From: Candidatus Didemnitutus sp.
GTDB taxonomy: Bacteria; Verrucomicrobiota; Verrucomicrobiia; Opitutales; Opitutaceae
Reading direction: 5' to 3'
Length of the DNA: 46,470 nucleotides
Assembly (NCBI GenBank): GCA_023701285.1
Contig: JAMPXH010000020.1
Location: forward strand, 1 to 46,470
Made by a program: the position numbers and the translations under genes. How positions within the stretch are numbered: position 1 is the first letter of the stretch; every line of letters begins with the position of its first letter. Positions 12,229-28,534 of this stretch are shown piece after piece. Below the pieces are notes generated by a model. It had not been told where the DNA came from. It was given only the letters and a program-made list of their open reading frames with translations, and did not search any database.

Positions 12229-12494
12229 GGGGCACGGCGCGGCTCGGCGGCCGCAAGGGGTGGGGTTGATGGGAGCCGTTACTACGCCCCGGAATATGAC
12301 ACAGTCAACCGGACCGGCCCGCGCGGCGCGCTTAGCAGACCCGGCAAAACGCGAGTTGAGCACTTTTAATCCGCGCCGAATTCCGCACCGCGCACCGCGG
12401 GCCTCCCCGACGACCTCCGCTCGTTCATCGCGGAACCTTGTGCTTTGGTCGCTCCTGCATAGGCTCCTCCGGCTCAACTCCTAGCCTCCCCCCC

Positions 12495-13388
12495 ATGATC
12501 TCGAAACTGACCCGTTCCACGCTCGTCCTCGCCGTCGGTCTCGCTGCCGCGGCCGCACTGCCGGCCCAGACCGCCGCGCCCCAGCTCCAATTCCCCGCCG
12601 CCAGCCCCGCTGCTTCGCTCAAGCAGCGCGTCGGCATCACCGACATCGAAATCACCTACGCCCGCCCGAGCATGAAGGGCCGTGCGATCTTCGGCGCCCT
12701 CGTGCCTTACGGGCACATCTGGCGCACCGGTGCCAACTCCGCGCCGAAAATCACCTTCAGCACGCCCGTGACTCTCGGCGGCGCCAATCTCGAAGCCGGC
12801 ACTTACGAACTGTTCACCATCCCGAACCAGGACGAGTGGACGATCATCATCCACAAGAACATGTCGCAATGGGGCTCCTACAGCTACGACGCCAAGAATG
12901 ACGTCGCTCGCGTCACCGCCAAGCCCGTCACACTCTCCGCGCCCGTCGAGTCATTCGCGATTTGGTTCAACGACCTCCGCGACAACTCCGCGACCCTCAA
13001 TCTCACTTGGGAAACGACCTCCGTCGCAGTCCCCCTCACGGTCGACACCGTCGGCATGCTCGTCCCGAAGGTCGAAGCCGCCCTCGCCAACACCGCGGCC
13101 AAGCCGAATCCGATGATGCTCTTCTCCGCGGCGATGTTCTTCCTCGAAAACAACCATGACCTGCCGAAGGCGCTCGAACTGATGAACGCCGCCATCGCCG
13201 GCCGCCCGGGCCAGATGTGGATGGTGCACCGCAAGGCCCTCATCCTCGAACGCCTGGGCGACAAAGCCGGTGCCAAGGCCGCCGCCGAAGAGTCGATCGC
13301 CCTCGCCGAGGCCGGCAAGGATCAACCCGCCGAGCTCCGCGACGAATACATCCGCCTGAACAAGGCGTTGCTCTCACGGGTGCAGTGA
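12495..13388 (+). CDS. Secreted DUF2911 protein with C-terminal TPR-like region
   Basis: The 297-residue protein has a signal peptide (about residues 1-25, ending 'ALPAQ') and a DUF2911 domain. The domain shows 'YARPSMKGRAIFG', 'PYGHIWRTGANSAPKITF' and 'LEAGTYELFTIPNQDEWTII'. After about residue 195 there is a helical, Ala-rich segment with TPR-like repeats ('ALELMNAAIAGRPGQMWMVH'). DUF2911 proteins are common in Bacteroidota and Verrucomicrobiota and have no established function. The start is the ATG at 12495, at the signal peptide. A good intrinsic terminator follows the stop codon, so it is probably a single-gene unit. Confidence 0.9.
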   Translation: MISKLTRSTLVLAVGLAAAAALPAQTAAPQLQFPAASPAASLKQRVGITDIEITYARPSMKGRAIFGALVPYGHIWRTGANSAPKITFSTPVTLGGANLEAGTYELFTIPNQDEWTIIIHKNMSQWGSYSYDAKNDVARVTAKPVTLSAPVESFAIWFNDLRDNSATLNLTWETTSVAVPLTVDTVGMLVPKVEAALANTAAKPNPMMLFSAAMFFLENNHDLPKALELMNAAIAGRPGQMWMVHRKALILERLGDKAGAKAAAEESIALAEAGKDQPAELRDEYIRLNKALLSRVQ

Positions 13389-13435
13389 GCAGCGCCCGCC
13401 GGGCGCACCGAACCCGACTCGTTTCGTTCCCTCAC

Positions 13436-13467
13436 AGGGCTGGACCGAGGCCCAGCCCTCTTCTTTT
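13436..13467 (+). terminator. Intrinsic terminator of the DUF2911 gene
   Basis: AGGGCTGG (13436-13443) and CCAGCCCT (13452-13459) form an 8-bp stem with an 8-nt loop, followed by CTTCTTTT. It lies 48 nt after the stop codon and before the PIG-L gene. Confidence 0.75.
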
Positions 13468-13489
13468 CCCCGCTCCCCTTCCCTCCCGC

Positions 13490-16030
13490 ATGCGCGCCGC
13501 TGCCGTTCTCGCCACGATCCCGATCACGCTCGCTTCGTTCACGTTCACGCCCGCATCGCGCGCCGCACCTGCACCGGCCCCGCTCCCGCCCGCCGCGATC
13601 GCCCAGGAACTCCGCTCGCTGCGCACGCTCGGCACGGTGCTCCACGTCGGCGCGCATCCCGACGACGAGAACACCGAGCTCATCACCTGGCTCGCCCGCG
13701 GCCGCGGCTACCGCACCGCCTACCTCTCCCTCACCCGCGGCGACGGCGGCCAGAACGAACTCGGCCGCGACTTCGACGAGCGCCTCGGCGTCCTCCGCAC
13801 GCAGGAACTCCTCGCCGCCCGCCAACTCGACACCGGCCGCCAATTCTTCACGCGCGCGATCGATTTCGGTTTCTCCAAATCCCCGGAGGAGACGCTGCGC
13901 TTCTGGGACCGCGACCAAGTCCTCGCCGACGTCGTGCGCATCTACCGGCAATTCCGCCCCGACGTCGTCGTCACGCGCTTCCCCATCCCGCCCGGCAGCG
14001 GCGGCCACGGCCACCACACCGCCTCCGGCATCCTCGCGGTCGAGGCCTTCAAGCTCGCCGGCGATCCGACCGCCTACCCCGAGCAACTCGCCCAAGGCCT
14101 CGCGCCGTGGCAGCCGAAGCGCGTGCTCTGGAACGTATTTCGCTTCAACCCCGACACGCCGCTCCCGCTCTCCGGCCCCATGTTCCAGCAGGACATCGCC
14201 GGCACCGACCCCGTCACCGGCGAAGCCTTCGGCCTCATCGCCGCGCACAGCCGCGCCATGCACAAGACGCAAGGCCTCGGCGGCTTCGTCACCCGCGCGC
14301 GGACCGGCACGAACGAACAGACTTTCCTTCTCCTCGCCGGCGAACCGGCGAACGCGACGGCCGCCGATTTGATGGACGGCATCGAGACCTCCTGGGCGCG
14401 CTACGAAGGCGGACGCGCGATCGACGCCGGCCTCGCCGCGATCGCCACGGCCTTCGATCCCGCCCAGCCCGCCGCCTCCGTGCCGGCCCTGCTCGACCTC
14501 CGCCGGCTCCTCGCCGCGCTTCCCGCCGATCCGATCGTGGACGACAAACGCGCCCAACTCGACCGCGTCATCCAATCCTGCCTCGGCTTGCGCGTGCAGA
14601 CGACCGTCGACCGACCCGAGGTCGTGCCCGGCGAAAACATCCGCCTCACCTTTCGCGCCGAGTTGACGGCCTCCGCGCCCGAGGTCCGCTACGCCGGCCT
14701 CCGCACCTCGCTTACCGCGGTGAAATTCCCGCCCGCCGCGCGCCCGCTCGCCGCCGGCGCGCCCTTCAGCGATTCGCTCGAGTTGACATTGCCCGACGAC
14801 ACGCCGCTCACGCAGCCCTACTGGCTCCGCGAGGAAGGCGAAGCCGGCATCGCCCGCGTCAGCGATCCCACGCTCATCGGCCGCCCGGAAAATCCCCCGG
14901 CCCTGCGCATCGAGCACGTCTTCCAGATCGGCGACGAGACCCTCGTCATCGCCGACGAACCCCGGCACACCGAGCCCGGCCAAGCGGACGCCAAGCCCCG
15001 CCGCCTCGACGTCATCCCACCCGTCGCGCTCGAGTTCGCCTCCGAGGTTTTCTACGTCGCGCCCGGCGCGACGAAGGAAGTGTCGCTCGCCATCTCCGCC
15101 GCGCGCGCCGACGCGCACGGCACCGTGCGGCTCGAACTGCCCGCCGGTTGGAGCGTCGCGCCGGCCAGCCGCGAATTCCAACTCGCCGCCGCCGGCGACC
15201 AGGCGCGCGTCACGTTCACGCTCACCGCCCCGCCCGCCGCCTCGCGCGGCTGGGTGAACGCCGTGGCCACCCTCGGCGGCCACGATTACTCGCACCAGCG
15301 CATCGCGCTCCGCTACGCGCACCTGCCCGTGCAGCTTCTCCAGCCGCCCGCCCGCGCCCGCCTCGCCACGTTCGAGCTCGGCACGCACGGCCGGAACATC
15401 GGTTACCTGCCCGGCGCGGGCGACTACGTGGCCGAGTGCCTCGCGCAAATGGGTTACGCCGTGCGCCCGCTCACCGGCGCCGATCTCACGCCGGAAAAAC
15501 TCGCCGGCCTCGACGCCGTCGTCATCGGCGTGCGCGCCTTCAATGAGCGCGCCGACCTGAAGGACGCCCTCCCCGGCCTCTTCGCCTGGGTCGAGCAAGG
15601 CGGCACCGTCATCGCGCAATACAACCGCCCCAACGGCCTGCTCGCCACGCCGCTCGCTCCCTTCGATCTCTCGATCGACGGCCCGGCCCCGCGCCTGCGC
15701 GTGACCGACGAGACCGCGCCCGTCGCCTTCCTCGCGCCCGACCACCCGGCGCTCAACGTGCCGAACCGTCTCGACGCCGCGACCGACTTCGCCGGCTGGG
15801 TGCAGGAGCGCGGCGCGTATTTCCCGTCGAAGTGGGACGAGACCGCCTTCACCGCGCTGCTGGCCATGCACGATCCCGGCGAGCCGCCGCTGCGCAGCAG
15901 CCTGCTCGTCGCGCGTCACGGTCGCGGCCACTACGTTTACACCGGCGTCGCCTTCTTCCGGCAGCTGCCGGCCGGCGTGCCCGGCGCGTGGCGGCTGTTC
16001 GCCAATCTCGTTTCCTTGAAAGGAGAATGA
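13490..16030 (+). CDS. Secreted PIG-L family deacetylase fused to a ThuA/GATase-like domain
   Basis: This 846-residue exported protein begins with a signal segment and then a PIG-L (LmbE-like) zinc deacetylase domain. The metal motif 'AHPDDEN' is at 55-61 and a second His-rich motif 'GGHGHHTASG' follows. PIG-L enzymes remove N-acetyl groups from GlcNAc-type sugars. The middle (about 430-640) looks like beta-sandwich, NPCBM/NEW3-like sequence. The C-terminal 200 residues ('GYLPGAGDYVAECLAQMGY', 'GLDAVVIGVRAFN', 'GGTVIAQYNRP') resemble ThuA-like/type-1 glutamine-amidotransferase-like domains. It is upstream of a small membrane protein and a sodium:solute symporter, so periplasmic trimming of a glycan or glycoside before uptake is plausible. 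It is not the bacillithiol deacetylase, which lies at 18990. Confidence 0.87.
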   Translation: MRAAAVLATIPITLASFTFTPASRAAPAPAPLPPAAIAQELRSLRTLGTVLHVGAHPDDENTELITWLARGRGYRTAYLSLTRGDGGQNELGRDFDERLGVLRTQELLAARQLDTGRQFFTRAIDFGFSKSPEETLRFWDRDQVLADVVRIYRQFRPDVVVTRFPIPPGSGGHGHHTASGILAVEAFKLAGDPTAYPEQLAQGLAPWQPKRVLWNVFRFNPDTPLPLSGPMFQQDIAGTDPVTGEAFGLIAAHSRAMHKTQGLGGFVTRARTGTNEQTFLLLAGEPANATAADLMDGIETSWARYEGGRAIDAGLAAIATAFDPAQPAASVPALLDLRRLLAALPADPIVDDKRAQLDRVIQSCLGLRVQTTVDRPEVVPGENIRLTFRAELTASAPEVRYAGLRTSLTAVKFPPAARPLAAGAPFSDSLELTLPDDTPLTQPYWLREEGEAGIARVSDPTLIGRPENPPALRIEHVFQIGDETLVIADEPRHTEPGQADAKPRRLDVIPPVALEFASEVFYVAPGATKEVSLAISAARADAHGTVRLELPAGWSVAPASREFQLAAAGDQARVTFTLTAPPAASRGWVNAVATLGGHDYSHQRIALRYAHLPVQLLQPPARARLATFELGTHGRNIGYLPGAGDYVAECLAQMGYAVRPLTGADLTPEKLAGLDAVVIGVRAFNERADLKDALPGLFAWVEQGGTVIAQYNRPNGLLATPLAPFDLSIDGPAPRLRVTDETAPVAFLAPDHPALNVPNRLDAATDFAGWVQERGAYFPSKWDETAFTALLAMHDPGEPPLRSSLLVARHGRGHYVYTGVAFFRQLPAGVPGAWRLFANLVSLKGE

Positions 16031-16168: not shown

Positions 16169-16321
16169 ATGCGCCCCGCTGCTGAAAAAGACCCCCTGAC
16201 GCCCGACGAACCACCCGCGTTGCCCGGTTTCCGCACGTGGCGCGGCGTGTATTGGTTCGTGCTCGCGGTCTTCGCGCTCGTCGTGATCGGGCTGACCGTT
16301 TTTTCCCGCGTGTTCGCATGA
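16169..16321 (+). CDS. 50-residue single-span membrane protein, symporter-linked
   Basis: This small ORF encodes a 50-residue protein. An acidic, Pro-rich start ('MRPAAEKDPLTPDEPPALPG') is followed by a Trp/Arg boundary and one hydrophobic helix ('VYWFVLAVFALVVIGLTVF') ending 'SRVFA'. The TGA stop overlaps the ATG of the sodium:solute symporter (ATGA at 16318-16321), indicating translational coupling. The topology and the invariant coupling suggest a small accessory subunit of the transporter, as seen for some other symporters. I know no named family for it. Support is the clean TM pattern, the overlap and the downstream gene; there is no homology evidence. Confidence 0.72.
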   Translation: MRPAAEKDPLTPDEPPALPGFRTWRGVYWFVLAVFALVVIGLTVFSRVFA

Positions 16322-18027
16322 CGCCGCTCGATTGGATCGTCCTGCTCGGGACCATGGTCGGCATCGCCGCCTACGGCGCATGGCGCACGCGGCACACCGA
16401 CCACCTCGACACCTATCTCAAGGGCAGCAAGACGACGGGCTGGTTCACCATCGGGCTCTCCGTCGCCGCCACGCAGGCGAGCGCGATCACATTCCTCTCC
16501 ATCCCGGGCCAGGGCTTCGAGAGCGGCATCGGTTTCGTGCAGAATTATTTCGGCCTGCCGCTCGCGCTCATCATCGTGTGCGCGGTCTTCCTGCCGATCT
16601 ACCGCCGGCTCGGCGTCTACACGGCCTACGAATATCTCGGCCGGCGCTTCGACGCGAAGACGCGCCTGCTCGGCGCCGGCCTGTTCCTGCTCCAGCGCGG
16701 TCTCGCCGCGGGCGTCACGATCTACGCGCCGGCCATCATCCTTTCCACCGTGCTGGGCTGGCGGCTCGACTTCACCATCATCGGCACCGGCGTGCTCGTC
16801 ATCCTCTACACCGTGACCGGCGGCAGCGCCGCCGTGAGCCTGACGCAGAAATGGCAGATGGGCGTCATCTTCGCGGGCATGATCACGGCCTTCTTCGTGT
16901 TGTTGACCAAGCTGCCGGCGGACCTCGGCTTTGACGGTGCCGCGCACCTCGCCGGCGCGCTGGGCAAGCTCGAGGCGGTCGACTACTCGCTCGATCCCGC
17001 GAAGCGCTACACGTTCTGGAGCGGCCTGCTCGGCGGTCTCTTCCTCTCGCTTTCCTACTTCGGCACCGACCAGTCGCAGGTCCAGCGCTACATCGGCGGC
17101 GCGTCGCTCCGCGAAGGCCGGATGGGGCTCGTCTTCAACGCGCTGCTGAAGATTCCGATGCAGTTCTTCATCCTGCTGCTCGGCGCGCTCGTGTTCGTGT
17201 TCTACCAGTTCCAGCCCGCGCCGGTTTTCCACAACCGCGCCGAGTGGTCGCACCACGCCGCCGGGCCGAACGGCGCCGTCTTCCGCGCGCTGGAGGAGAA
17301 ACACGCCGCGCTCCACGTCGCGAAGCAGGAAAAGATCGCCGCCTGGCAGGCCGCGCGCCGCAGCGGCGACGAGGCCGGCGAGCAATCCGCCCGCGCCGCG
17401 CTGGTCGAGGCCAACCGCGCCACCGACGCCGTGCGCGCCGAGGCGAAGCAGGCGCTCCTCGCCGCCGATCCGCGCGCCAAGGTGAAGGACTCCGACTACG
17501 TCTTCCTCGGCTTCATCGTCACGCAGCTGCCCTCCGGCGTCGTCGGCCTGCTCATCGCGGTCATGATCGCCGCCGCGCTCGGCTCGAAGGCGAGCGAGCT
17601 CAACGCGCTCGCCACCACCTCCACCATCGACCTCTGGCGCCACTTCCGCCCGCTGGCGGCGCACGACGAGGCGCGCAACGTCCGCGTCGCGAAATGGTTC
17701 ACCGCCGCGTGGGGCCTCTTCGCCATCGGCTTCGCGCTCTTCGCCGGCTTCGCCGAGAACCTCATCGAGGCGATCAACATCCTCGGCTCGATCTTCTACG
17801 GCGTCGTGCTCGGCCTGTTCCTCGTCGCGTTCTTCCTCCGGCGCGTCGGCGGCACCGCCGTTTTCTGGGGCGCCGTCGCGGCGCAGCTGCTCGTCTTCGT
17901 GCTCTACGGCACGCTCACCATCTCCTACCTTTGGTATAACCTCATCGGCTGCGCCGCCTGCGTGCTCTTTGCCGCGGTGCTGCAACTTATCCTTCCCAAA
18001 CCAACCAACCCCGGATTGCACGGATGA
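16318..18027 (+). CDS. Sodium:solute symporter (SSS family)
   Basis: This 569-residue integral membrane protein is a Na+-coupled symporter. Signatures are 'TYLKGSKTTGWFTIGLSVAA', 'SAITFLSIPGQGFESGIGF' and 'YFGTDQSQVQRYIGG' (residues 247-261). Most of the protein is hydrophobic helices. An unusual charged, Ala-rich and probably coiled-coil stretch (about 300-392) interrupts the membrane core. Similar insertions are known in some SSS proteins from Bacteroidota and Verrucomicrobiota. The start ATG overlaps the stop of the 50-residue protein. The last residues ('PTNPGLHG') are encoded within a dispersed repeat. The substrate is unknown; the PIG-L neighbour hints at a sugar or amino sugar. Confidence 0.9.
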   Translation: MTPLDWIVLLGTMVGIAAYGAWRTRHTDHLDTYLKGSKTTGWFTIGLSVAATQASAITFLSIPGQGFESGIGFVQNYFGLPLALIIVCAVFLPIYRRLGVYTAYEYLGRRFDAKTRLLGAGLFLLQRGLAAGVTIYAPAIILSTVLGWRLDFTIIGTGVLVILYTVTGGSAAVSLTQKWQMGVIFAGMITAFFVLLTKLPADLGFDGAAHLAGALGKLEAVDYSLDPAKRYTFWSGLLGGLFLSLSYFGTDQSQVQRYIGGASLREGRMGLVFNALLKIPMQFFILLLGALVFVFYQFQPAPVFHNRAEWSHHAAGPNGAVFRALEEKHAALHVAKQEKIAAWQAARRSGDEAGEQSARAALVEANRATDAVRAEAKQALLAADPRAKVKDSDYVFLGFIVTQLPSGVVGLLIAVMIAAALGSKASELNALATTSTIDLWRHFRPLAAHDEARNVRVAKWFTAAWGLFAIGFALFAGFAENLIEAINILGSIFYGVVLGLFLVAFFLRRVGGTAVFWGAVAAQLLVFVLYGTLTISYLWYNLIGCAACVLFAAVLQLILPKPTNPGLHG

Positions 18028-18088: not shown

Positions 18089-18862
18089 ATGATTTCTCCG
18101 ATCATCTGCTTCGGCCAGCAACCCTGCGGCTTCTTCCCGCGCCGTTTCCTCTACGCGAAGTTCGTCACCGCGCGCCGGCTCCAGCGCGAGATCGGCGGCG
18201 AGATCGTGTTCTTCTACCACGACAGCGACCACGACCCGCGCGAGACGCAGACCACCCTGCGCCACCGCCGCACCGGCGAGCCACAGACGCTGAACTTCAC
18301 CTTCGCGAACAAGCTCCAGCGCAAGTTCTCCCCGCTCTTCGCCAAGCGCCTCCCCGCCGACTGGCAGCCGCAGATGGCGCGCACGCTCGGCGCCTTCGTC
18401 GGACCGGCCGCGCTCGAAGCCTTCCGCGCCGTGCGCGCCGACAACGTCGCCGACTTCTGCCTCGAGCTGTATCGCGCGCAGGGCCTGCTCGACGGCGTGC
18501 GCGTCGTCCGCTCCGGCGACCGCGCCGTGCGCGAGGCCGCCTGCGCCATCGGCGACTGCTTCGTCGACGTCCCGCACGAGGGCGAACTCGTCCGCGCGCG
18601 GCTGCTCGACGGGCAACTCAAACTCCACGAGGGCGGCAACAGCTACATCACTCTCCCCGCTCAATCCTTCGCCCCAAGCCAGATCAGCCCCACGCGCGAC
18701 AGCCGCCTGCGCTGGATGCAGTCCGTCATCCACTGCACGCACTACATCGCCGGCGCCGGCGAACAGGCCTACCTCAACGTCGCCGACGCCCCCGACATCA
18801 CCTTCGTCCCCCGCGACCCGATCGAACGCTCCGACGAGGCCTGGAGCGAATTTCCCGCCTGA
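18089..18862 (+). CDS. bshC: Compact BshC-like protein (putative bacillithiol cysteine ligase)
   Basis: The 257-residue protein is directly upstream of bshB and bshA. Residues 9-49 read 'GQQPCGFF...YAKF...FFYHDSDHD', matching the N-terminal BshC core (GQQ-G, Y-K and DHD motifs). Residues 207-229 read 'LRWMQ...YIAGAGEQAYL', matching the BshC end-of-core motif (LRPL-Q-D...Y-GGPAE-AY). Canonical BshC proteins are about 540 residues with an inserted domain and a C-terminal coiled coil. Here the middle is short and the coiled coil is absent. Known BshC adds Cys to GlcN-malate. Motif alignment is from memory, so function is inferred from motif order plus context. The ATG directly follows a dispersed repeat. 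Confidence 0.7.
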   Translation: MISPIICFGQQPCGFFPRRFLYAKFVTARRLQREIGGEIVFFYHDSDHDPRETQTTLRHRRTGEPQTLNFTFANKLQRKFSPLFAKRLPADWQPQMARTLGAFVGPAALEAFRAVRADNVADFCLELYRAQGLLDGVRVVRSGDRAVREAACAIGDCFVDVPHEGELVRARLLDGQLKLHEGGNSYITLPAQSFAPSQISPTRDSRLRWMQSVIHCTHYIAGAGEQAYLNVADAPDITFVPRDPIERSDEAWSEFPA

Positions 18863-18879
18863 CGTCCGCCCGCGCATCC

Positions 18880-18895
18880 GGCAGCGTCTGCTGCC
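18880..18895. other. Small hairpin between bshC-like and bshB1 genes
   Basis: GGCAGC-GTCT-GCTGCC is a perfect 6-bp stem in the 127-nt gap. There is no T-tract, so it may attenuate rather than terminate, or have no function. Confidence 0.35.
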
Positions 18896-18989
18896 ATCGC
18901 GTCGGCCCGCGCCCGGCATCTGTCCCGAAAGCGCCCGCCGCTCCAGCCGATCAAAGTCCAACGCCACTCCACGCCGGTCCTCCTTTCCC

Positions 18990-19709
18990 ATGAATCTCAC
19001 CACCGCCCCCCTGCTCGCCTTCGGTGCGCACCCGGACGACATCGAATTCGGCGCCGGCGGCATCGTCGCCCGCGAGACGCAGGCCGGCCGCCCGGCCCAC
19101 CTCGTCGTCTGCTCGCGCGGCGAGGCCGGCACCAACGGCACGCCCGCCGAACGCACCAAGGAGGCGGAGAAGGCCGCCAAGCACCTCGGCGCCACGCTCG
19201 AATGGGTCGAACTCGACGGCGATTCGCACCTCGACGTCCGCAACGCCCACGCGCTCAAGCTCGCCGCCATCATCCGCGCCGTGCGGCCCGGCATCGTGCT
19301 CGCACCCACGCCCGAGCCCAATCAACACCCCGACCACTGGCGCCTCGGCCAGCTCGCCCGCGACGCCACCCGGCTCGCCCGCTACGGCGGCGTGCCGGAG
19401 CTCAAGGCCCGCACCCCGCACGCCGTCGGCCAGCTTTTCTTCTACGCCCTCGGCCCCGGCGCCGAACCGCGCGACACCCCGCCGGTCATCATCGACGTGT
19501 CCGACAAACCCGTCATGACCGCGTGGACCAAGGCCATGGAGGCGCACGCCTCGCAGATGAAGACGCGCAACTACGTCGAGCTCCAGCTCGCCCGCGCGCG
19601 CGTCCACGGCCTCAACGCCGGCGTCGGCCACGCGCAGCCGCTCTGGCCGAACGACCCGCTCGTCTTCCACTCGCTCACCGACATCTCCCGCGGCGCGCGC
19701 CGCTTCTGA
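18990..19709 (+). CDS. bshB1: Bacillithiol biosynthesis deacetylase BshB1-like
   Basis: This cytoplasmic PIG-L deacetylase of 239 residues would hydrolyse GlcNAc-malate to GlcN-malate in bacillithiol synthesis. The zinc motif 'AHPDD' lies at 13-17, followed by 'EFGAGGIVARE', the typical 'SRGEAGTNGTP' loop and 'PNQHPDHWRLG' with the second metal His. There is no signal peptide, unlike the PIG-L protein at 13490. It sits 24 nt before the BshA gene, which supports the pathway assignment. Related PIG-L enzymes act on mycothiol precursors, but the BshA neighbour favours bacillithiol. Confidence 0.88.
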   Translation: MNLTTAPLLAFGAHPDDIEFGAGGIVARETQAGRPAHLVVCSRGEAGTNGTPAERTKEAEKAAKHLGATLEWVELDGDSHLDVRNAHALKLAAIIRAVRPGIVLAPTPEPNQHPDHWRLGQLARDATRLARYGGVPELKARTPHAVGQLFFYALGPGAEPRDTPPVIIDVSDKPVMTAWTKAMEAHASQMKTRNYVELQLARARVHGLNAGVGHAQPLWPNDPLVFHSLTDISRGARRF

Positions 19710-19733
19710 GCCTCCGTCCGCACAACCCGTCCC

Positions 19734-20867
19734 ATGCCCGACCGTCCGCTCCGCCTCGGCATCGTCTGCCACCCGTCCGTCGGGGGCAGCGGCATCCTCG
19801 CGTCCGAGTTGGGCGAGGAACTCGCCGCGCGCGGGCATGAGATCCACTTCGTCTCGCACTCGCCGCCGTTCCGCATGCCGGTCGACGCGCCGCGCATCCG
19901 CTTCCACCCGGTCGAGGTGAACAGCTACGATCTCTTCAAATACCCCGACTACACCCTGCCGCTCTCGGTGAAGCTCGCCGAGGTCAGCCAGGCCCACGCG
20001 CTCGACGTCCTGCACGTGCACTACGCCGTGCCGCACGCCACCGCCGCGATGCTGGCGATGACGATGCTGCCGAAGGAAAAACGCCCCAAGGTCATCGTGA
20101 CGATGCACGGCACGGATGTGACGCTCCTCGGCTGCGATGCCGGCTACGCGCCGGCCATCCAACACGCCTTGGAGCACGCCGACGCGGTCACCACCGTCTC
20201 GCACTTCCTCGAGCGCGCCATGCTCGAGCGGTTCCAGTTCTCCACGCCGGTGGAGGTGATCCCGAATTTCTTCACCCCCCGCCCCGACGCGCGCCCGCGC
20301 GCCGTCGTGCGCGCGGAGCTCGGCCTCGCCGACGACGAGGCCATGCTGCTCCACCTCTCGAATCTCCGGCCGGTGAAACGCATCGACCTCCTGCTCGAGG
20401 CGCTCGCGCTCCTCGCCCGCACCGAGCGGTTCAAGCTCGTGGTGCTCGCCGGCGGCGACTTCGCCCCGCACGCCGCGCAGGCGCGCGCGCTCGGCCTGGC
20501 CGACCGCATCATCGTCCGCGAGCGCGTGACCGCGATCGAGGATTACCTGCAGGCGGCCGACGTCGGCGTGTTCACGTCGCAGATGGAGAGCTTCTGCCTG
20601 AGCATCCTGGAGGCGATGACCTTCTCGTGCCCGAGCGCCGCCTTCGCCGTCGGTGGCATCCCCGAGGTGATCGAGAGCGGTGTGCACGGCGAGCTGGTGC
20701 CCTTCGGCGACACGGCGGCGCTGGCGGCGGCGCTCGCGGGTCTGCTGCGCGAGCCGGCACGCCGCCGCGCCATGGGCGCCGCCGCGTGCGAGCGGGCGCA
20801 TGCGCATTTCTCGGCCGACATCATCGTGCCGCGCTACGAGGCGTTGTATCGCCGACTCACGGCCTGA
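19734..20867 (+). CDS. bshA: N-acetyl-alpha-D-glucosaminyl L-malate synthase BshA
   Basis: This GT4-family glycosyltransferase transfers GlcNAc from UDP-GlcNAc to L-malate, the first bacillithiol step. The 377-residue product opens with 'IVCHPSVGGSGILASELGEE' and 'GHEIHFVSHSPPFRM', which are BshA hallmarks. It continues with 'HVHYAVPHATAA', 'MHGTDVTLLG' and the donor-site motif 'ESFCLSILEAM' (EX7E). Length and motif order are normal. The gene is last in the bshC-like/bshB1/bshA set. A 10-bp hairpin lies about 75 nt after the stop codon. Confidence 0.93.
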   Translation: MPDRPLRLGIVCHPSVGGSGILASELGEELAARGHEIHFVSHSPPFRMPVDAPRIRFHPVEVNSYDLFKYPDYTLPLSVKLAEVSQAHALDVLHVHYAVPHATAAMLAMTMLPKEKRPKVIVTMHGTDVTLLGCDAGYAPAIQHALEHADAVTTVSHFLERAMLERFQFSTPVEVIPNFFTPRPDARPRAVVRAELGLADDEAMLLHLSNLRPVKRIDLLLEALALLARTERFKLVVLAGGDFAPHAAQARALGLADRIIVRERVTAIEDYLQAADVGVFTSQMESFCLSILEAMTFSCPSAAFAVGGIPEVIESGVHGELVPFGDTAALAAALAGLLREPARRRAMGAAACERAHAHFSADIIVPRYEALYRRLTA

Positions 20868-21063: not shown

Positions 21064-24000
21064 ATGCGATCTGCTTTTGCCTCGTTCCCTGCGCTCCGGG
21101 ATATCGTCCGCGCCGGCGTGCTGCTGTTCGTGTTCACCCTTTGCGCCGCGCTGCCGTTGCGCGCGCAATTGTCCTACACGACACCCGAGGCGCCGCTGGT
21201 CGAGACCTTCGACGCCGGGCTGCCCGCCGCGCTCAACACCGCCGTGCCGTGGACCGACAACGTCACGTTCACGGGCTGGTATGCGCAGTTCGATCTTACC
21301 GGCACGCCCGCGACCTACCGCATCAGCAACACGCCCTCGAACAACCAGATTCAGCAATTCCGTAACGCCGCTTCCGCGACCGACGGCGCACTGGGCGGAC
21401 GCGCGGCCGATACGGCCGGGCCAATCTATTACGCCGTCCGCCTCCGCAACACCACCGGCGTCACATTGCGGACGTTCACGCTGCGCTATGCGCTTGAGCA
21501 ATGGTCGCGCAGCACCGCCACGATCACGAATTCCTTCACCGTTACCTTCCGCCTCGGCGATCCCGCCAATTTGCAAGACGGCTTTTGGGCCCCGCTCCAA
21601 TACGCCGCCACCGACGCGCCGAGCTTCGACGGCACCGAGGCCACCACGCTCAACGGCTCCTTCGCCGCCAATCGCACCGTCTCGCAAACCCTCACCGTCG
21701 GCGGCCTCGCCTGGGAGCCCGGCACCGATCTCTGGATCCGCTTCCAGGATGCGAACGATGGCGGCATCGACCACGGCATCGCGCTCGACGACGTCGTGTT
21801 CACCGCCTCCACGTCCACCGACGTGCCCGTCGGCGGCGTGATCTTCGGACGCAACCGCTACATCGAAATCCATCCGGGAGACATCCCCCTGATCATCGCC
21901 GCGCCCCACGGCGGGTTGGAGGAACCCGCCGACATCGCCGATCGCACCTACGGCGTCTTCGAGCGCGACATCAACACCCAGGACATGGCGCGGCGCATGG
22001 TGGCCGAAATCTACGCCCGCACCGGCAAGCGGCCGCACCTGATCATGAGCCTGATCCATCGCCGCAAACTCGACCCGAACCGCGACATCGTTGTCGCCGC
22101 CCAAGGCGACCCCAACGCCGAGATCGCTTGGAACGAATACCACGGCGCCATCGCCACCGCGCGCGCCTCCGCAGAGTCGAACTTCGGCTTCGGCCTCCTC
22201 GTCGACACGCACGGCCACGGCCACACGATCCAGCGCATCGAGCTCGGCTACGTCGTGCGCTCCGAGGAGCTCGACCTCAGCGACCAGCAACTCGAACACC
22301 CGGCCTACGCGGAAAACAGCTCCTGCCGCACGCACGCCCACCTGCCCGGCGTGCATTTTCCGTCCTTCCTCCGCGGTCCGCGCAGCCTCGGCGCGCTCTT
22401 CGTCGCACGCGGTTATCCCGCCGTGCCCAGCCCCGACATGCCCAGTCCCGCCGGCGCCGCCTACTTCGACGGCACCGGCGGCTACACCAGCGAGGCCCAG
22501 GGCTCCCGCATCCACCTCGACAACGTCCAGGCCTTCCTCATGGAGACCCACTGGACCGGACTCCGCGATACCACCGCCGCCCGCGTCGCCTTCGCGCGGA
22601 CCTTCGCCACGGCGATCAACGCCTTCCTCTACGACCAATGGGGCTACGCGCTCGGCAGCGGCTCGCTCTTCCGGCTCTCCGCCTCCGCCGCCACCTTCGC
22701 CGAGAGCGGCGCGCCCCGCACGCTCACCGTCACCCGCTCCGGCCATCTCGGCGAGGAGGAGACCATCGCGCTCGCCTTTTCCGGCACCGCCACGCTGGCG
22801 GAGGATTACACCGCCTCGGCGACGAGCCTCACCTTCGCGCCCGGCGAGACCGAGAAAACCCTCACGCTCACGCCCATCGACGATGCTGCCGCCGAAGGCG
22901 CGGAAACCCTCGCCGTCGCCCTCGTTCCCACCGCACTCCAGACCGCCGACGTGCTGCCCGTGGAACTGCTCCTCACCGACGACGAATTGGCCACGGTGCA
23001 ACTCACCTCCGCTCGCGCCTCCTTCAGCGAAGGCGGCGATCCACTCGAGATCACGCTCACCCGCGACCTCACCGCCGACGCACTCACCGCCACGGTCCAA
23101 TTCACCGGCCGCGCCGTGCGCGGTCGCGATTACGCCGTCACCGGCCTCGATGCCTCCAACCAGGTCACCTTCGGCCCCGGCGACACCACGCGCACCCTCA
23201 CGCTCACGGCGCTCCCCAACACGCGCCTCGACCCGGTCCGCACGCTCACCCTCGCGGTCGAAGCCGGACCGGCGCATCGCGGCGGGCCCGCACTCACGCT
23301 CGCGCGGGGCGACGACGACCTGCCCGCCGACCTCGCGCTGTGGCTCGCCGATCGCATCGAGGACGACGTCTGGCGCGACGATTCCGCGCACGGACGCGAC
23401 GCGGCGCTGAAGCCCTCCAGCGCCAGCCTCCCGACCGTCGCGGACGCCACTGCGGGCCGCGCCGTGGAATTCGACGGCGCCAAGACCGCCGCCGTCGCCC
23501 CGCGCCTCGCGCTCGGCACCTCCGGCTTCACGCTCGCGTTTCGCTTCCGGCTCGACGCGTCCGGCACGGCCAACGGCGAGCGCCACCTCCTCAACCTCGG
23601 CACGCCGCCCCAGCCCGCGAGCTTGAACGTGTTCCTCGCCGAGGCCGACGGCATGCTGCGCACCGTGCTCGGCGACACGGCGGCCAATCCCGCCACCACC
23701 ACGCTCGCCGTGCCCGCGCCCGCCGCCGGCACGTGGCAACACTACGCTCTCACCGTCTCGCCCGCCGGCGCCGTGCAGATCTACCTCGACGGCGTGCCGA
23801 CCGCCTCCACCGCGGCCCCAGCCGTCCCGGTCGCGCTCGATGCCCCGCTCTGGCTTGGCTGGAGCGGCGGCACCGATCCGAGTCCGCACCGCCACCATCG
23901 CGGCGGCCTCGCCGATGTCCGCCTCTACACGCGCGCCCTCGCGCCGGCCGAAGTCGCCGCGTTGCACGCCCCGTCCGAGCCTCCCCTCTCCGCGTGGGAA

Positions 24001-24375
24001 CAGTGGCGGCGCGACAATTTCTCCGCGCCCGAACTCGCCGACGCCGCACTCAGCGGCGCGGCGGCCGATGCCGATGCCGACGGCCTCGCCAACGCGCTCG
24101 AGTTCGCGCTCGCCCTCGACCCGCACACGCCCGGCACGAGCGGCGCCCCTGCGCTGATGCTCGACGCGAACCGCCGCCTCACGCTGTCGTTCGTGCGCCG
24201 CGCGCTGCCCGAGATCATCTACGACGTGCAAGCCTCGGACGATCTCCAGACGTGGACCTCTCTCTGGTCGAGCACCGGCGCCGCTAACACCGCGGGGCCG
24301 GTCACCGTCACGGATGACGTCGCCTTCGACGCGACGACCCGGCGCTTCCTCCGCCTCGCCATCACCACGCCCTGA
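21064..24375 (+). CDS. Giant secreted N-formylglutamate-amidohydrolase-like protein with Calx-beta and LamG domains
   Basis: The 1103-residue exported protein has a signal peptide (about 1-34). An N-terminal beta-rich domain (about 35-255) is followed by a hydrolase region resembling the HutG/N-formylglutamate amidohydrolase fold: 'APHGG' (His282), 'DINTQDMA', 'RRKLDPNRD' and 'VDTHGHGH' (His383/385/387). Two Calx-beta repeats follow ('AEDYTASATSLTFAPGETEK', 'RGRDYAVTGLDASNQVTFGP'). Then come a LamG/concanavalin-like domain and a C-terminal module ending in 'ADADGLANALEFALALDP'. It could be a surface amidohydrolase or peptidase; the substrate is unknown. The tandem gene downstream is a paralogue through LamG. 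The C-terminal module is shared with the protein at 42329. Confidence 0.85.
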   Translation: MRSAFASFPALRDIVRAGVLLFVFTLCAALPLRAQLSYTTPEAPLVETFDAGLPAALNTAVPWTDNVTFTGWYAQFDLTGTPATYRISNTPSNNQIQQFRNAASATDGALGGRAADTAGPIYYAVRLRNTTGVTLRTFTLRYALEQWSRSTATITNSFTVTFRLGDPANLQDGFWAPLQYAATDAPSFDGTEATTLNGSFAANRTVSQTLTVGGLAWEPGTDLWIRFQDANDGGIDHGIALDDVVFTASTSTDVPVGGVIFGRNRYIEIHPGDIPLIIAAPHGGLEEPADIADRTYGVFERDINTQDMARRMVAEIYARTGKRPHLIMSLIHRRKLDPNRDIVVAAQGDPNAEIAWNEYHGAIATARASAESNFGFGLLVDTHGHGHTIQRIELGYVVRSEELDLSDQQLEHPAYAENSSCRTHAHLPGVHFPSFLRGPRSLGALFVARGYPAVPSPDMPSPAGAAYFDGTGGYTSEAQGSRIHLDNVQAFLMETHWTGLRDTTAARVAFARTFATAINAFLYDQWGYALGSGSLFRLSASAATFAESGAPRTLTVTRSGHLGEEETIALAFSGTATLAEDYTASATSLTFAPGETEKTLTLTPIDDAAAEGAETLAVALVPTALQTADVLPVELLLTDDELATVQLTSARASFSEGGDPLEITLTRDLTADALTATVQFTGRAVRGRDYAVTGLDASNQVTFGPGDTTRTLTLTALPNTRLDPVRTLTLAVEAGPAHRGGPALTLARGDDDLPADLALWLADRIEDDVWRDDSAHGRDAALKPSSASLPTVADATAGRAVEFDGAKTAAVAPRLALGTSGFTLAFRFRLDASGTANGERHLLNLGTPPQPASLNVFLAEADGMLRTVLGDTAANPATTTLAVPAPAAGTWQHYALTVSPAGAVQIYLDGVPTASTAAPAVPVALDAPLWLGWSGGTDPSPHRHHRGGLADVRLYTRALAPAEVAALHAPSEPPLSAWEQWRRDNFSAPELADAALSGAAADADADGLANALEFALALDPHTPGTSGAPALMLDANRRLTLSFVRRALPEIIYDVQASDDLQTWTSLWSSTGAANTAGPVTVTDDVAFDATTRRFLRLAITTP

Positions 24376-24787
24376 GCGCGCCGCCAGCGGGTCCGGCCGC
24401 CGCGCGCCTCGGCGTCCCGGCGAACGTTGCCCGTCGCACCCGCCGCCCGGAGGCCGGTGGTGCGTCCGTGGCTTGCGCGTTTCTACGCCCATTACGTAGC
24501 GCAAAGCGCCGGTCTGTGCGCCGCCCTGCAGTGCTGTTACAGTGAGCGCGTGCTAGGCACTACCCCGCCTGCCGATTTTCTGTTGCCGCGGATTTTTCCT
24601 GCGGTCGTGGGCCCGGCCGTCGCCCCCGCCGCGCAAAACCCGCGCGGCGCCCGTGAGCCGCCGTAGCGCGAGCACCCCGCCCCACGCCCACCCCAGCGTC
24701 ACCGCCGCGCCGCCCCTGCGCCGCGTTTCCCCCCCGCTCCGCGCCCGCCGGGCCGGAGATTCGTCCGTTTTGCTTTCTCGGTCATCC
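24376..24787. other. 412-nt intergenic region between the two giant secreted genes
   Basis: No credible gene is visible here. It contains an inverted repeat at 24473-24504 and otherwise featureless GC-rich sequence. It probably holds the promoter of the second paralogue. Confidence 0.5.
24473..24504. promoter_or_regulatory. Inverted repeat TTGCG..CTACG / CGTAG..CGCAA
   Basis: Arms TTGCG (24473-24477) plus CTACG (24483-24487) face CGTAG and CGCAA (24495-24504), with a 5-nt bulge on the left. It lies about 285 nt upstream of the second giant gene. Operator or structural element; function unknown. Confidence 0.35.
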
Positions 24788-27700
24788 ATGCACCTCCTTT
24801 CCCGTTCGTCTCTCCGCGCGGCCGCCCTCCTCGCCGCCCTCGCCGCCAGCGCCCCGCTCCCTGCGCAGGTTTCCTACGCCACCGCCGGCTCCAGCTACGT
24901 CCAGAACTTCAACGGCGGCCTGCCCGCCGCCTCGAACAACGCCGCCACGTGGACCGACAACTCCACGGCCAACTTCACCGGTTGGTCTGTTTACCGCGAG
25001 TTGAACGGCACGCCCTCCACCTACCGCATCAACTCCGCCACCTCGTCCGGCGACGTGCAGCACTTCCGCTCCAGCGCGAGCGCCACCGACGGCGCATTCG
25101 GCGGCCGGCCCAACGACAGCACGGGCAAGATCCACTACGGCGTCCGCCTCCGCAACGCCACCGGCGCCACGCTCCGCACCTTCACGCTCAGCTACGCCCT
25201 TGAGCAATGGTATCGCAGCGGCACCGCCAACGCCAACGAGCTCCGCGTCTCCTTCAAGCTCGGCAACCCCGCCAGCCTCGCCGACGACGGCACCTGGGGC
25301 CTCATCACGCCACTCACCCTCACCGCCCCGCAGACCGGCGGCACCGCCGGCGACCTCACCGGCTCCGACTCCGCCAACCGCGTCGCCTCCACCGCCATCA
25401 CCGTCGGCGGCTTCGAGTGGGCCGACGGCACCGACCTCTGGATCCGCATCTCCGACGACAACGACGGCGGCGTCGACCAGGGCCTCGCCATCGACGACTT
25501 CACCTTTTCCGCCGCCACCACCGCCACCGTGCCCGTCGGCGGGGTCTCCTTCGGACGCCACGGCTACATCGAATACCAGCCCGGCGACAGCCCGCTCATC
25601 ATCGTCACCGGCCACGGCGGCCGCGAGCAGCCGGCCGAGATCCCCGACCGCACCTACGGCGCCGTCGACGAGGACCTCAACACCCAGGACCTCGCCCGCA
25701 AGATCGTCGCCGAGATCCACGCCCGCACCGGCCAGCGCCCGCACCTCATCGTCAACCGCCTCCACCGCGTGAAGCTCGATCCCAACCGCGAGATCGTCGA
25801 GGCCGCCCAAGGCGACGCCGAGGCCGAGATCGCGTGGAACGAATTCCACGACTACATCCGCGACGCGCGCGACGTCATCGCGCCCGCGTTCGGTTTCGGT
25901 TTCCTCGTCGACATCCACGGCCACGCCCACGCCATCGATCGCCTCGAGTTCGGCTACAACCTCGGCGCCGCCGAGCTCAACCAGAGCGACGCCGAGCTGC
26001 GCCGCCCCTCCTACGCCGAAGATTCCTCGCTCCGCACCCACACTTACCGCCCCGGCATCGATCTCCCTGCCCTGCTCCGCGGCGCCCGCAGCCTCGGCGA
26101 CCTGCTCGAACGCCGCAATTACCCCAGCGTGCCCAGCCCCACCAACCCCGGCCCCGGCGCCAACGACTACTTCGAGGGCGGCTACAACATCGAGGAACAC
26201 GGCTCGCTCCTGAACACCGGCAACATCCAAGCCGTGCAGATCGAGGCGCATTACGACGGCGTGCGCGATACCGACGCCAACCGCACCGCCTTCGCCGGCG
26301 CACTCGCCACTTCGCTCCACGATTTCCTCTACGACCAGTTCGGCTACGCCCTCGGCAGCGGCTCGCTCTTCACCCTCAGCGCCTCCACCGACCGGCTCTA
26401 CGAGAACGGCAGCGCCCTCACGCTCACCGTCACCCGCTCCGGCCACCTCGCCAACGCCGAGACCATCGCCCTCGACTTCGGCGGCACCGCCGTGCGCAAC
26501 ACCGATTACACCGCCTCGGCCACCAGCGTCTCCTTCGCCGTCTCCGAGACGCAGAAGACCATCACGCTCACACCGACCAACGATGCCGCCGCCGAAGGCG
26601 CCGAGACCATCGTCGTCGCCCTAGCGCCCACCGCGCTCCAGACCGCCGACGTCCTTCCGCTCACGCTCGCGCTCTCCGACGACGACCGCGCCTCCGTCCA
26701 TGTCGTCGCCCAAGCCGCCACCGCCACCGAGGGCGGCTCCACCGTGAACGTCGACGTCACCCGCGACCTCGTCAGCGGCACGCTCCAGGCGCAGCTGCAC
26801 TTCACCGGCACCGCCGTGCGCGGCGTCGATTACGACGTCACCGGCCTCGACTCGCTCGACCGCGTCGCCTTCGCCAACGGCGTCGCCAACCAGACCATCG
26901 GCCTCGTGCCGCTCAACGACAGCGTGATGGAGCCCGCCAAGACCATCGTCGTCACCGCCGCCCCCGGCGCCAGCCATGCGACCGGCGTGCCCGCCGCCGC
27001 CACCGTGCGGCTCACCGACAACGACCTCGACGCTGCGCTCGAGCTCTGGTTCGCCGACCGCATCGACGACGGCGCCTGGCGCGACGAGTCCGGCCACGGC
27101 CGCGACGGCGCGTTCCGCCCCTACGGCGCCACGGGACCGGCACCCGCCGCCGGCGTCGCGGGCACCGCGGTCGAGTTCGACGGCGCCGACGATGCCGTCG
27201 TCACGCCGCACTTCCCCGTCGGCCCGGCCGAATTCACCCTCACGTTCCGCTTCCGCCTCGACCCCACCGCCACGAGCACGGCCTTCCGGCATCTCTTCAA
27301 CCTCGGCGGCTACGACGAGGCGGACAGCCTCACCATCTTCCGCGTCGAGAGTAACAACAACCTCCGCACGCTCCTCCACGACGCCAACGAGGCCCCGTCC
27401 AACACCGCGCTCGACGTCACCGGCATCACCGCCAACAGCACCTGGCGCCACTACGCGCTCACCGTTTCCACCACGAACGGCCTCCGCGTCTACATCGACG
27501 GCGTCTCCTCCGCCAGCGTCGGCTCCTGGAGCGGCAGCTTTGCTCCGCAGAGCGCGCTCTGGTTCGGCTGGCGCGGCGCCTACAGCCTCATCGCCAGCCG
27601 TCACCTCAACGGCGCGATGGAGGACATCCGCCTCTACTCGCGCGCGCTCTCCGCCGCCGAGGTCGCCGCCGTCGCCGCCGTGCCCGCCCGGCCGCCCGCC

Positions 27701-28534
27701 GGCCCCTCCGCGCTCGGCGCCACCGCCACCTCGTCGAGCCAGATCGACCTCGCCTGGACCGACCACTCCGGCGACGAGACCGGCTTCAAGGTCGAACGCT
27801 CCACCGACGGCGTGAATTTCAGCCTGCTCACCACCACCGCCGCCAACGCCACGGCCTACGCCGACACCGGACTCTCCGGCAACACCACGTATCACTACCG
27901 CGTGCGCGCCACCAACACCCACGGCGACTCGCCCGCCTCCAACCCCGCCACCGCCACGACGCCGCCCGCGCAGGTCACCGTCACCTTTACGAGCGTCGCC
28001 GCCCACGACGGCTGGGTGCTCGAATCCGGCGAGAACACCAGCGCCGGCGGCTCCACCGACAGCTCCGCGCTCCGCGCCGGCGACAACAACCAGGACCGCC
28101 AATACCGCACGCTCGTCTCCTTCGACACCTCCGCGATCCCCGACGGCGCCACGATCGTCTCCGCCACGCTGAAGCTCCGCCGCTCCGGCGTCACGGGCAC
28201 CAACCCCTTCGGCACGCACGGCACCTGCCACGTCGACCTCAAGGGCGGCACCGGCTTCGGCGGCGCGACCGCGCTCGCCACCGGCGATTTCCAGGCCGCC
28301 GCCGACGCCACGCAGGTCGCCGCCCTGAGCAACGCCGCGAACAACAACGACTGGTCCACCGGCGCGCTCAACGGCACCGGCCTCGGCCTCGTCAACAAGA
28401 CCGGACACACGCAGTTCCGCGTTTATTTCGCGACCGACGACAACGACGACACCGGCAACGACTACATCACGTGGTATCCCGGCGACAACGCCACCGCCGC
28501 CAACCGCCCTGTGCTCGAAATCGTCTACCAGTAA
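24788..28534 (+). CDS. Giant secreted paralogue: HutG-like hydrolase, Calx-beta, LamG, Fn3 and DNRLRE domains
   Basis: The 1248-residue protein starts with a signal peptide ('SSLRAAALLAALAASAPLPA') at the ATG at 24788. Through about residue 980 it follows the upstream protein closely: the same N-terminal domain, hydrolase motifs 'GHGG' (His276), 'HRVKLDPNRE' and 'VDIHGHAH' (His377), two Calx-beta repeats and LamG. Its C-terminus differs. A fibronectin type III domain ('IDLAWTDHSGDETGFKVERS') and a DNRLRE-type beta domain ('RTLVSFDTSAIPDGATIVSA') replace the 'ADADGLANALEFAL' module. It arose by tandem duplication with C-terminal exchange. A strong intrinsic terminator follows. A cell-surface role is likely; activity is unproven. 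Confidence 0.85.
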   Translation: MHLLSRSSLRAAALLAALAASAPLPAQVSYATAGSSYVQNFNGGLPAASNNAATWTDNSTANFTGWSVYRELNGTPSTYRINSATSSGDVQHFRSSASATDGAFGGRPNDSTGKIHYGVRLRNATGATLRTFTLSYALEQWYRSGTANANELRVSFKLGNPASLADDGTWGLITPLTLTAPQTGGTAGDLTGSDSANRVASTAITVGGFEWADGTDLWIRISDDNDGGVDQGLAIDDFTFSAATTATVPVGGVSFGRHGYIEYQPGDSPLIIVTGHGGREQPAEIPDRTYGAVDEDLNTQDLARKIVAEIHARTGQRPHLIVNRLHRVKLDPNREIVEAAQGDAEAEIAWNEFHDYIRDARDVIAPAFGFGFLVDIHGHAHAIDRLEFGYNLGAAELNQSDAELRRPSYAEDSSLRTHTYRPGIDLPALLRGARSLGDLLERRNYPSVPSPTNPGPGANDYFEGGYNIEEHGSLLNTGNIQAVQIEAHYDGVRDTDANRTAFAGALATSLHDFLYDQFGYALGSGSLFTLSASTDRLYENGSALTLTVTRSGHLANAETIALDFGGTAVRNTDYTASATSVSFAVSETQKTITLTPTNDAAAEGAETIVVALAPTALQTADVLPLTLALSDDDRASVHVVAQAATATEGGSTVNVDVTRDLVSGTLQAQLHFTGTAVRGVDYDVTGLDSLDRVAFANGVANQTIGLVPLNDSVMEPAKTIVVTAAPGASHATGVPAAATVRLTDNDLDAALELWFADRIDDGAWRDESGHGRDGAFRPYGATGPAPAAGVAGTAVEFDGADDAVVTPHFPVGPAEFTLTFRFRLDPTATSTAFRHLFNLGGYDEADSLTIFRVESNNNLRTLLHDANEAPSNTALDVTGITANSTWRHYALTVSTTNGLRVYIDGVSSASVGSWSGSFAPQSALWFGWRGAYSLIASRHLNGAMEDIRLYSRALSAAEVAAVAAVPARPPAGPSALGATATSSSQIDLAWTDHSGDETGFKVERSTDGVNFSLLTTTAANATAYADTGLSGNTTYHYRVRATNTHGDSPASNPATATTPPAQVTVTFTSVAAHDGWVLESGENTSAGGSTDSSALRAGDNNQDRQYRTLVSFDTSAIPDGATIVSATLKLRRSGVTGTNPFGTHGTCHVDLKGGTGFGGATALATGDFQAAADATQVAALSNAANNNDWSTGALNGTGLGLVNKTGHTQFRVYFATDDNDDTGNDYITWYPGDNATAANRPVLEIVYQ

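Follow-up and report, generated by a model that had tools for sequence, protein, structure and literature searches.

A compact BshC-like protein encoded beside bshB1-like and bshA genes in Verrucomicrobiota, proposed as a cysteine ligase of half the canonical length

Can a protein of half the canonical length perform the last step of a bacillithiol-type pathway? This question is raised by a stretch of 46,470 nucleotides from Candidatus Didemnitutus sp. (Verrucomicrobiota, Opitutaceae; GenBank assembly GCA_023701285.1, contig JAMPXH010000020.1, positions 1 to 46,470), the whole of which is referred to here as the window, and in which a gene for a short protein precedes a bshB1-like deacetylase gene and a bshA glycosyltransferase gene. 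An original prediction, made from the sequence of the window alone, had described the product of this first gene as a half-length relative of BshC, the proposed cysteine ligase of the final step in the synthesis of bacillithiol, a protective thiol. The analyses described below indicate that the protein, which is termed compact BshC in the following, is a divergent and compact homolog of BshC, as judged from sequence profiles and from the fold of predicted models, and that its gene stands where a different class of the phylum carries full-length bshC. It is most likely the cysteine ligase of a bacillithiol-type pathway, and a probability of roughly 0.85 is assigned to the reading that it has the BshC fold and carries out the last step of this pathway. 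This suggests that Verrucomicrobia with the compact gene make bacillithiol or something close to it.

Conservation of the compact gene and its co-occurrence with bshA

The open reading frame (ORF) of compact BshC encodes the 257 residues given in the original prediction, and its ATG is directly preceded by an in-frame TAA stop codon. A total of 142 loci with a match to the protein were collected, five of which were dropped as cut off, and the remaining 137 yielded 113 distinct translations (the window included) with lengths of 244 to 289 residues and a median of 257. The lower extreme belongs to a locus truncated at its edge, and the upper one reflects a start call placed further upstream. Three of the translations duplicate others in edge-trimmed form. 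An alignment of 110 rows, representing 107 distinct proteins including that of the window (which is present twice, while two rows are trimmed copies), contains 51 invariant positions. The C-terminal coiled coil of canonical BshC (PF24850) was described as absent from the first gene, and it was indeed not found in the compact members scanned, while three canonical BshC proteins in the same Pfam comparison carry it; the window's genome as a whole gave no PF24850 match at E ≤ 10. Because the length is conserved in 113 translations and the genome is without a match to this domain, the gene is not a frameshifted remnant of a full bshC, and a chance ORF is ruled out on the same grounds. The compact gene is real and conserved.

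Among 384 genomes of the window's class, 50 encode BshA over its cut-off, and the identical 50 show a strong match to compact BshC; these genomes are related and hence do not represent 50 independent events. BshA is missing from the other 334. Any match at all to the compact protein was obtained in 51 genomes, the additional one (G036) being left out of the co-occurrence for its single weak match (E 5.4e-4, 28% identity over residues 45-167), which has a stop inside. In 49 of the 50 genomes, the genes for BshA and compact BshC are found near each other, in one case (G079) across a contig end, and G346 has them on different contigs. In the family to which the window belongs, both genes are found in 22 further genomes and neither of them in 15. 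In a phylum sample of 387 genomes, all 25 that match the compact protein belong to the window's class.

Gene order was followed in the best 80 of 275 relatives from the genome_contigs collection, which bear titles of Verrucomicrobiota, many of them Opitutaceae, Opitutae or Opitutus, with some genera that we take to belong to this phylum. Compact bshC, bshB and bshA occur in that order within set distances at 74 of these 80 loci. The six exceptions comprise two loci that end early (L057, L081), one with bshA only (L102) and three with bshB only, each with 6 kb of downstream sequence (L045, L051, L066). At a few other loci (for example L007 and L023), bshA directly follows compact bshC, with no bshB between them. 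Compact relatives from outside Verrucomicrobiota were not found in the plasmid collection.

A full-length bshC elsewhere in the genome had been named in the original prediction as the result that would speak against it. None was found in the window's genome (95.4% complete), and none of the 384 class genomes encodes a protein matching PF10079, the core of BshC, over the cut-off, the only three weak hits being the compact gene itself; the same search detected its positive controls in Bacillus subtilis, Thermus composti and Deinobacterium chartae. Of 203 genomes sampled from the phylum, 15 encode BshA. Thirteen of these belong to the window's class and each of them has the compact gene. The remaining two (G414 and G467) come from another class, and no other genome among the 203 exceeds the PF10079 cut-off. 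Their clusters consist of a BshC of 521 and 525 residues, respectively, followed by a deacetylase ORF and BshA in the order and orientation seen in the window, and neither genome shows a compact match at E ≤ 10. The compact gene holds the slot of full-length BshC in this other class of the same phylum.

Relationship to canonical BshC

At the sequence level, PF10079 matches three of 35 compact members (E 7.7e-6, 8.5e-5 and 1.1e-4), and the same three are weakly matched by TIGR03998. The best compact member (L111) scores 25.9 bits against a PF10079 gathering cut-off of 27 bits, which is why the compact protein is to be considered a BshC homolog and not a member of the family by the Pfam rule. 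For TIGR03998, the best score among the six compact members scanned (window, L111, L112, L113, L024 and L109) was 20.5 bits, against an equivalog cut-off of 265.8 bits. Local alignment of the two families with hhalign paired window residues 165-230 with canonical residues 290-358 (E 2.7e-4, probability 41.9%, four BshC sequences) and window residues 4-54 with canonical residues 84-140 (E 0.0042, probability 8.1%, six BshC sequences). A 16-row family alignment gave an E-value of 0.0011 with a probability of 20.8%, and the comparison with a single BshC sequence a probability of 2.8%. In global mode, the compact family is collinear with canonical residues 83 to 391, and a global alignment with the window and B. 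subtilis proteins as first rows starts at canonical residue 82 and ends at about residue 369. As the placement of the tail differs between these two alignments, that of the last ~25 residues is unreliable. The original prediction had called for a profile match over both end motifs, and one was obtained: despite its modest probabilities, the scores of 35.1 (local) and 23.1 (global) were not equaled by any of 200 column-shuffled versions of the canonical BshC alignment, whose maxima were 23.3 and 13.7.

The motifs themselves are located where they had been placed, i.e., GQQ at residues 9-11, DSDHD at 45-49, LRWMQ at 207-211 and YIAGAGEQAYL at 219-229. At twenty aligned positions, the 110 compact rows and six canonical BshC sequences (two of them from Bacillus) are each invariant, and twelve of these positions bear the same letter in both families (compact/canonical): G9/G90, Q10/Q91, Q11/Q92, K24/K105, D47/D134, H48/H135, D49/D136, E52/E139, R206/R334, G222/G350, E225/E353 and Y228/Y356. 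The claim that the middle of BshC is missing did not stand. Residues 18/19 to 149/151 of the three relatives match positions 107 to 244/245 of the BshC Pfam profile, and window residues 165-230 correspond to canonical residues 290-358 in the local hhalign comparison. Three other parts are absent from the compact protein: ~82 residues at the N terminus, ~37 residues that would follow window residue 148, and the coiled coil at the C terminus. Its chain is little more than a class I aminoacyl-tRNA-synthetase-like core with a connecting region.

An AlphaFold2 model of the window protein, built from a 35-row alignment, reached a predicted local distance difference test score (pLDDT) of 93.7 and a predicted template modeling score of 0.90. 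In a Foldseek search of the PDB, B. subtilis BshC (4wbd) was the sole match with E ≤ 0.001 (E 5.5e-10). A second look at the Foldseek candidates with VIA-align superposed the model on 4wbd with a Z score of 20.4 and a root-mean-square deviation (rmsd) of 2.5 over 240 of 257 residues, followed by class I lysyl-tRNA synthetase (1irx) with a Z score of 14.4 over 210 residues, while all other listed entries scored 9.0 or less. A second model was made of a member from a different genus and clade that is 52% identical to the window protein (pLDDT 90.4). Its best match was again 4wbd (Z 18.9, rmsd 2.9, 236 of 252 residues), ahead of the next best at 13.8. Thus, the structural match to B. subtilis BshC that was originally anticipated was found with two predicted models. 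In neither model is the fold closer to a synthetase than to BshC, which leads by 6.0 and 5.1 Z units, respectively, and cysteinyl-tRNA synthetase (CysRS) scored 8.2 and 7.5. The second rank of 1irx in both models suggests a link between BshC and class I lysyl-tRNA synthetase.

A proposed cysteine ligase and its alternatives

The two genes downstream of compact bshC had both been called clear. For bshA this is borne out by a TIGR03999 score of 371.3 bits, well above the NCBIfam cut-off of 273.7 bits. For the middle gene the wording was slightly too strong: among the NCBIfam models, its product, a PIG-L protein, does match BshB1 (TIGR04001) best, but at 133.6 bits, under the equivalog cut-off of 182.5 bits. 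In the proposed pathway, BshA would join N-acetylglucosamine, supplied as uridine diphosphate N-acetylglucosamine, to malate, and the BshB1-like deacetylase would free the amine to give glucosamine-malate. Compact BshC would then join the carboxylate of cysteine to this amine, as has been proposed for BshC, possibly with ATP-driven activation, for which the synthetase-like fold alone speaks, and the product would be bacillithiol. Both the N-terminal part and the dimerizing C-terminal coiled coil of canonical BshC would be unneeded. As the compact form keeps the core without the coiled coil, neither the coiled coil nor a pocket depending on it would be essential if the protein is active.

Several observations weigh against this interpretation. 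The compact protein of the window matches nothing in Pfam or NCBIfam at E ≤ 10, is only about 17% identical to BshC and finds chance-level matches in a PDB sequence search (best E 0.055 for the protein and 0.44 for the family alignment). Likewise, 32 of the 35 compact members show no PF10079 match at E ≤ 1. The local hhalign probabilities listed above are low to middling, which is partly due to the small depth of the family alignment (an effective number of sequences of about 2). Eight of the 20 doubly invariant positions differ between the compact family and canonical BshC, and the canonical C-terminal invariants R490, P497, Q502, E503, R504, N507 and G516 have no counterpart in the compact form. 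Compared with the G414 and G467 clusters, the BshA of the window is 31-32% identical and its BshB 25% identical, the deacetylase sequence having been compared in one of the two (L150). It follows that the whole cluster, and not the ligase alone, is of a different lineage, and such a divergent gene set, together with a BshB below its equivalog cut-off, implies that the substrate may differ. Finally, no bacilliredoxin was found in the window's genome by a search that covered the PF06491 type.

The most probable alternative, close to the bacillithiol variant that the original prediction had also offered, is a BshC relative making a different thiol, in which divergent BshA, BshB and compact BshC proteins would use another acceptor or amino acid to give a bacillithiol-like product. 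This would agree with the divergence of all three proteins, with the family-specific invariants C13, H44 and H218 beside the shared motifs, and with the finding that canonical BshC over the cut-off never occurs beside the compact form in the sampled class. On the other hand, BshA lies well above its equivalog cut-off and keeps stretches such as PSVGGSG and HVHYA-PHA in comparison with its closest solved chains, one of which is named a BshA-type synthase (5d00) while the other four of the closest five are named just glycosyltransferases, and the twelve invariant residues common to both families point to the same chemistry. A different thiol is regarded as unlikely.

Five cysteine and histidine residues are invariant in all 110 compact rows, namely C13, H44, C124, C216 and H218, three of which (C13, H44 and H218) stand where six canonical BshC sequences have the invariant small residues G94, A131 and A346. 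Judged solely by the succession of strands and helices in the model, C13 and H44 likely lie near the active cleft, and C216 may be located at the far end of a strand. CysRS and MshC, the cysteine ligase of mycothiol synthesis, hold cysteine through a metal, and C13, H44 and H218 could form a metal site like that of these enzymes. It is conceivable, if somewhat improbable taken as a whole, that the compact family constitutes a separate, minimal ligase for bacillithiol-type thiols with an active site of its own, in which these three residues would be potential metal ligands, cysteine might be held by the metal, the chain might be similar to an ancestral core that later grew into full-length BshC, and the product would be a new variant of bacillithiol.

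A protein with the BshC fold that is not a ligase, i.e., a partner or regulator acting beside a ligase encoded elsewhere and not recognized as such, is judged very unlikely. In its favor, the ligase activity of the compact protein is a proposal, and the C-terminal domain of BshC has been lost together with its invariant residues. However, all 110 rows retain the core motifs unchanged, unlike a decayed enzyme, and the gene accompanies bshA in 50 of 50 genomes and takes the place of full-length BshC. Least probable of all, and close to dismissal, is the independent recruitment of a small class I aminoacyl-tRNA-synthetase-like ligase that is not a BshC, comparable to the kinship of MshC with CysRS, of which it is a relative: 1irx is the second-best fold and many synthetases follow it, but BshC leads in both models and the sequence profiles match BshC, in a comparison limited to that family.

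With compact BshC retained as the most likely cysteine ligase of the cluster, other thiol-related genes in the window's genome can be listed alongside it. A glutamate-cysteine ligase of the PF04262 type was not found there, and a single GCS2-family match (PF04107, 218 bits, L153:1471-2589) starts with LGIEEEF, for which reason it is presumably of the YbdK type, so that a glutathione route may exist as well. The ORF beside it (L153, 409-1386) appears ATP-grasp-like by eye, and the two could form a glutathione-type or other amide ligase pair.

Locus context and comparison with known systems

The positions of the three genes and of the motifs of compact BshC are compiled in Table 1. Another PIG-L protein, a 937-residue ORF with PF02585 and NPCBM_assoc domains, is encoded two genes upstream of compact bshC (13217-16030, +), and a sodium:solute symporter gene (16237-18027) lies between them. 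Further upstream, an HTH_3-type protein with an IrrE-like M78 domain (7722-9272, +) and a DUF2911 protein (12438-13388, +) were identified. Two neighboring large ORFs (21064-24375 and 24653-28534, both +) share Calx-beta and Laminin_G_3 domains and a weak match to N-formylglutamate amidohydrolase, the latter ORF additionally carrying an fn3 domain, and may represent tandemly arranged surface or secreted proteins.

Table 1. Genes of the bacillithiol-type cluster and conserved motifs of compact BshC (window coordinates).
Feature	Position	Strand	Evidence or alignment
Compact BshC-like protein, 257 residues (proposed cysteine ligase; "compact BshC")	18089..18862	+	ORF, models, profile alignments
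GQQPCG motif, residues 9-14	18113..18130	+	Invariant in 110-row alignment; G9, Q10, Q11 align with G90, Q91, Q92 of B. subtilis BshC
DSDHD motif, residues 45-49	18221..18235	+	D47, H48, D49 align with D134, H135, D136 of BshC
LRWMQ...YIAGAGEQAYL segment, residues 207-229	18707..18775	+	G222, E225, Y228 align with G350, E353, Y356 of BshC
bshB1-like PIG-L deacetylase, 239 residues	18990..19709	+	PF02585; TIGR04001, 133.6 bits
bshA, glycosyltransferase, 377 residues	19734..20867	+	TIGR03999, 371.3 bits

In the relevant sections of a 2018 survey, Verrucomicrobia are listed without a documented or predicted low-molecular-weight thiol, and genomes with partial pathways are said to deserve study (PMC6282198). 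The criteria given there were at least 30% identity and similar length, and those given in the corresponding part of a 2025 survey were similar length, a coverage of more than 80% and an identity of more than 25% (PMC12719100). As far as these stated rules go, both surveys would by construction exclude the compact form. A short BshC, or bacillithiol in Opitutaceae, was not reported in the pertinent parts of the literature searched on bacillithiol and BshC, including PMC8261052 and PMC7278568. The compact form is probably a previously unreported BshC variant that works like BshC while falling outside the cut-offs of its models and its domain architecture.

With the compact gene, a pathway that had looked incomplete becomes complete, and a thiol is predicted for that part of the class which bears the gene (50 of 384 sampled genomes); the prediction does not extend to the other 334. 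Moreover, according to the corresponding passages of a 2015 review, BshC activity had never been demonstrated in vitro, citrate and glycerol were observed in the active site of canonical BshC, with ADP in a second pocket, and the coiled coil is needed for dimerization (PMC4360819). A naturally halved protein that does without the coiled coil would reveal the dispensable parts of BshC and may be easier to reconstitute, and the compact enzyme would offer a stripped-down system for studying the unsolved BshC reaction.

Among known systems, the closest is canonical BshC (YllA; PF10079 and PF24850; TIGR03998), which comprises 521-554 residues in six sequences compared with 257 in the compact protein, and which shares with it a Rossmann-like core carrying GQQ, DHD-x-x-E, R and G-x-x-E-x-x-Y. 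Class I lysyl-tRNA synthetase, a chain of 507 residues in 1irx, ranks above the other listed synthetases in both models. The third system is MshC, which is described in part of the 2015 review as related to BshC (PMC4360819); its absence from the listed fold matches carries no weight in either direction. In general terms, MshC resembles the proposed compact BshC, as cysteine is joined to the amine of glucosamine within a thiol pathway.

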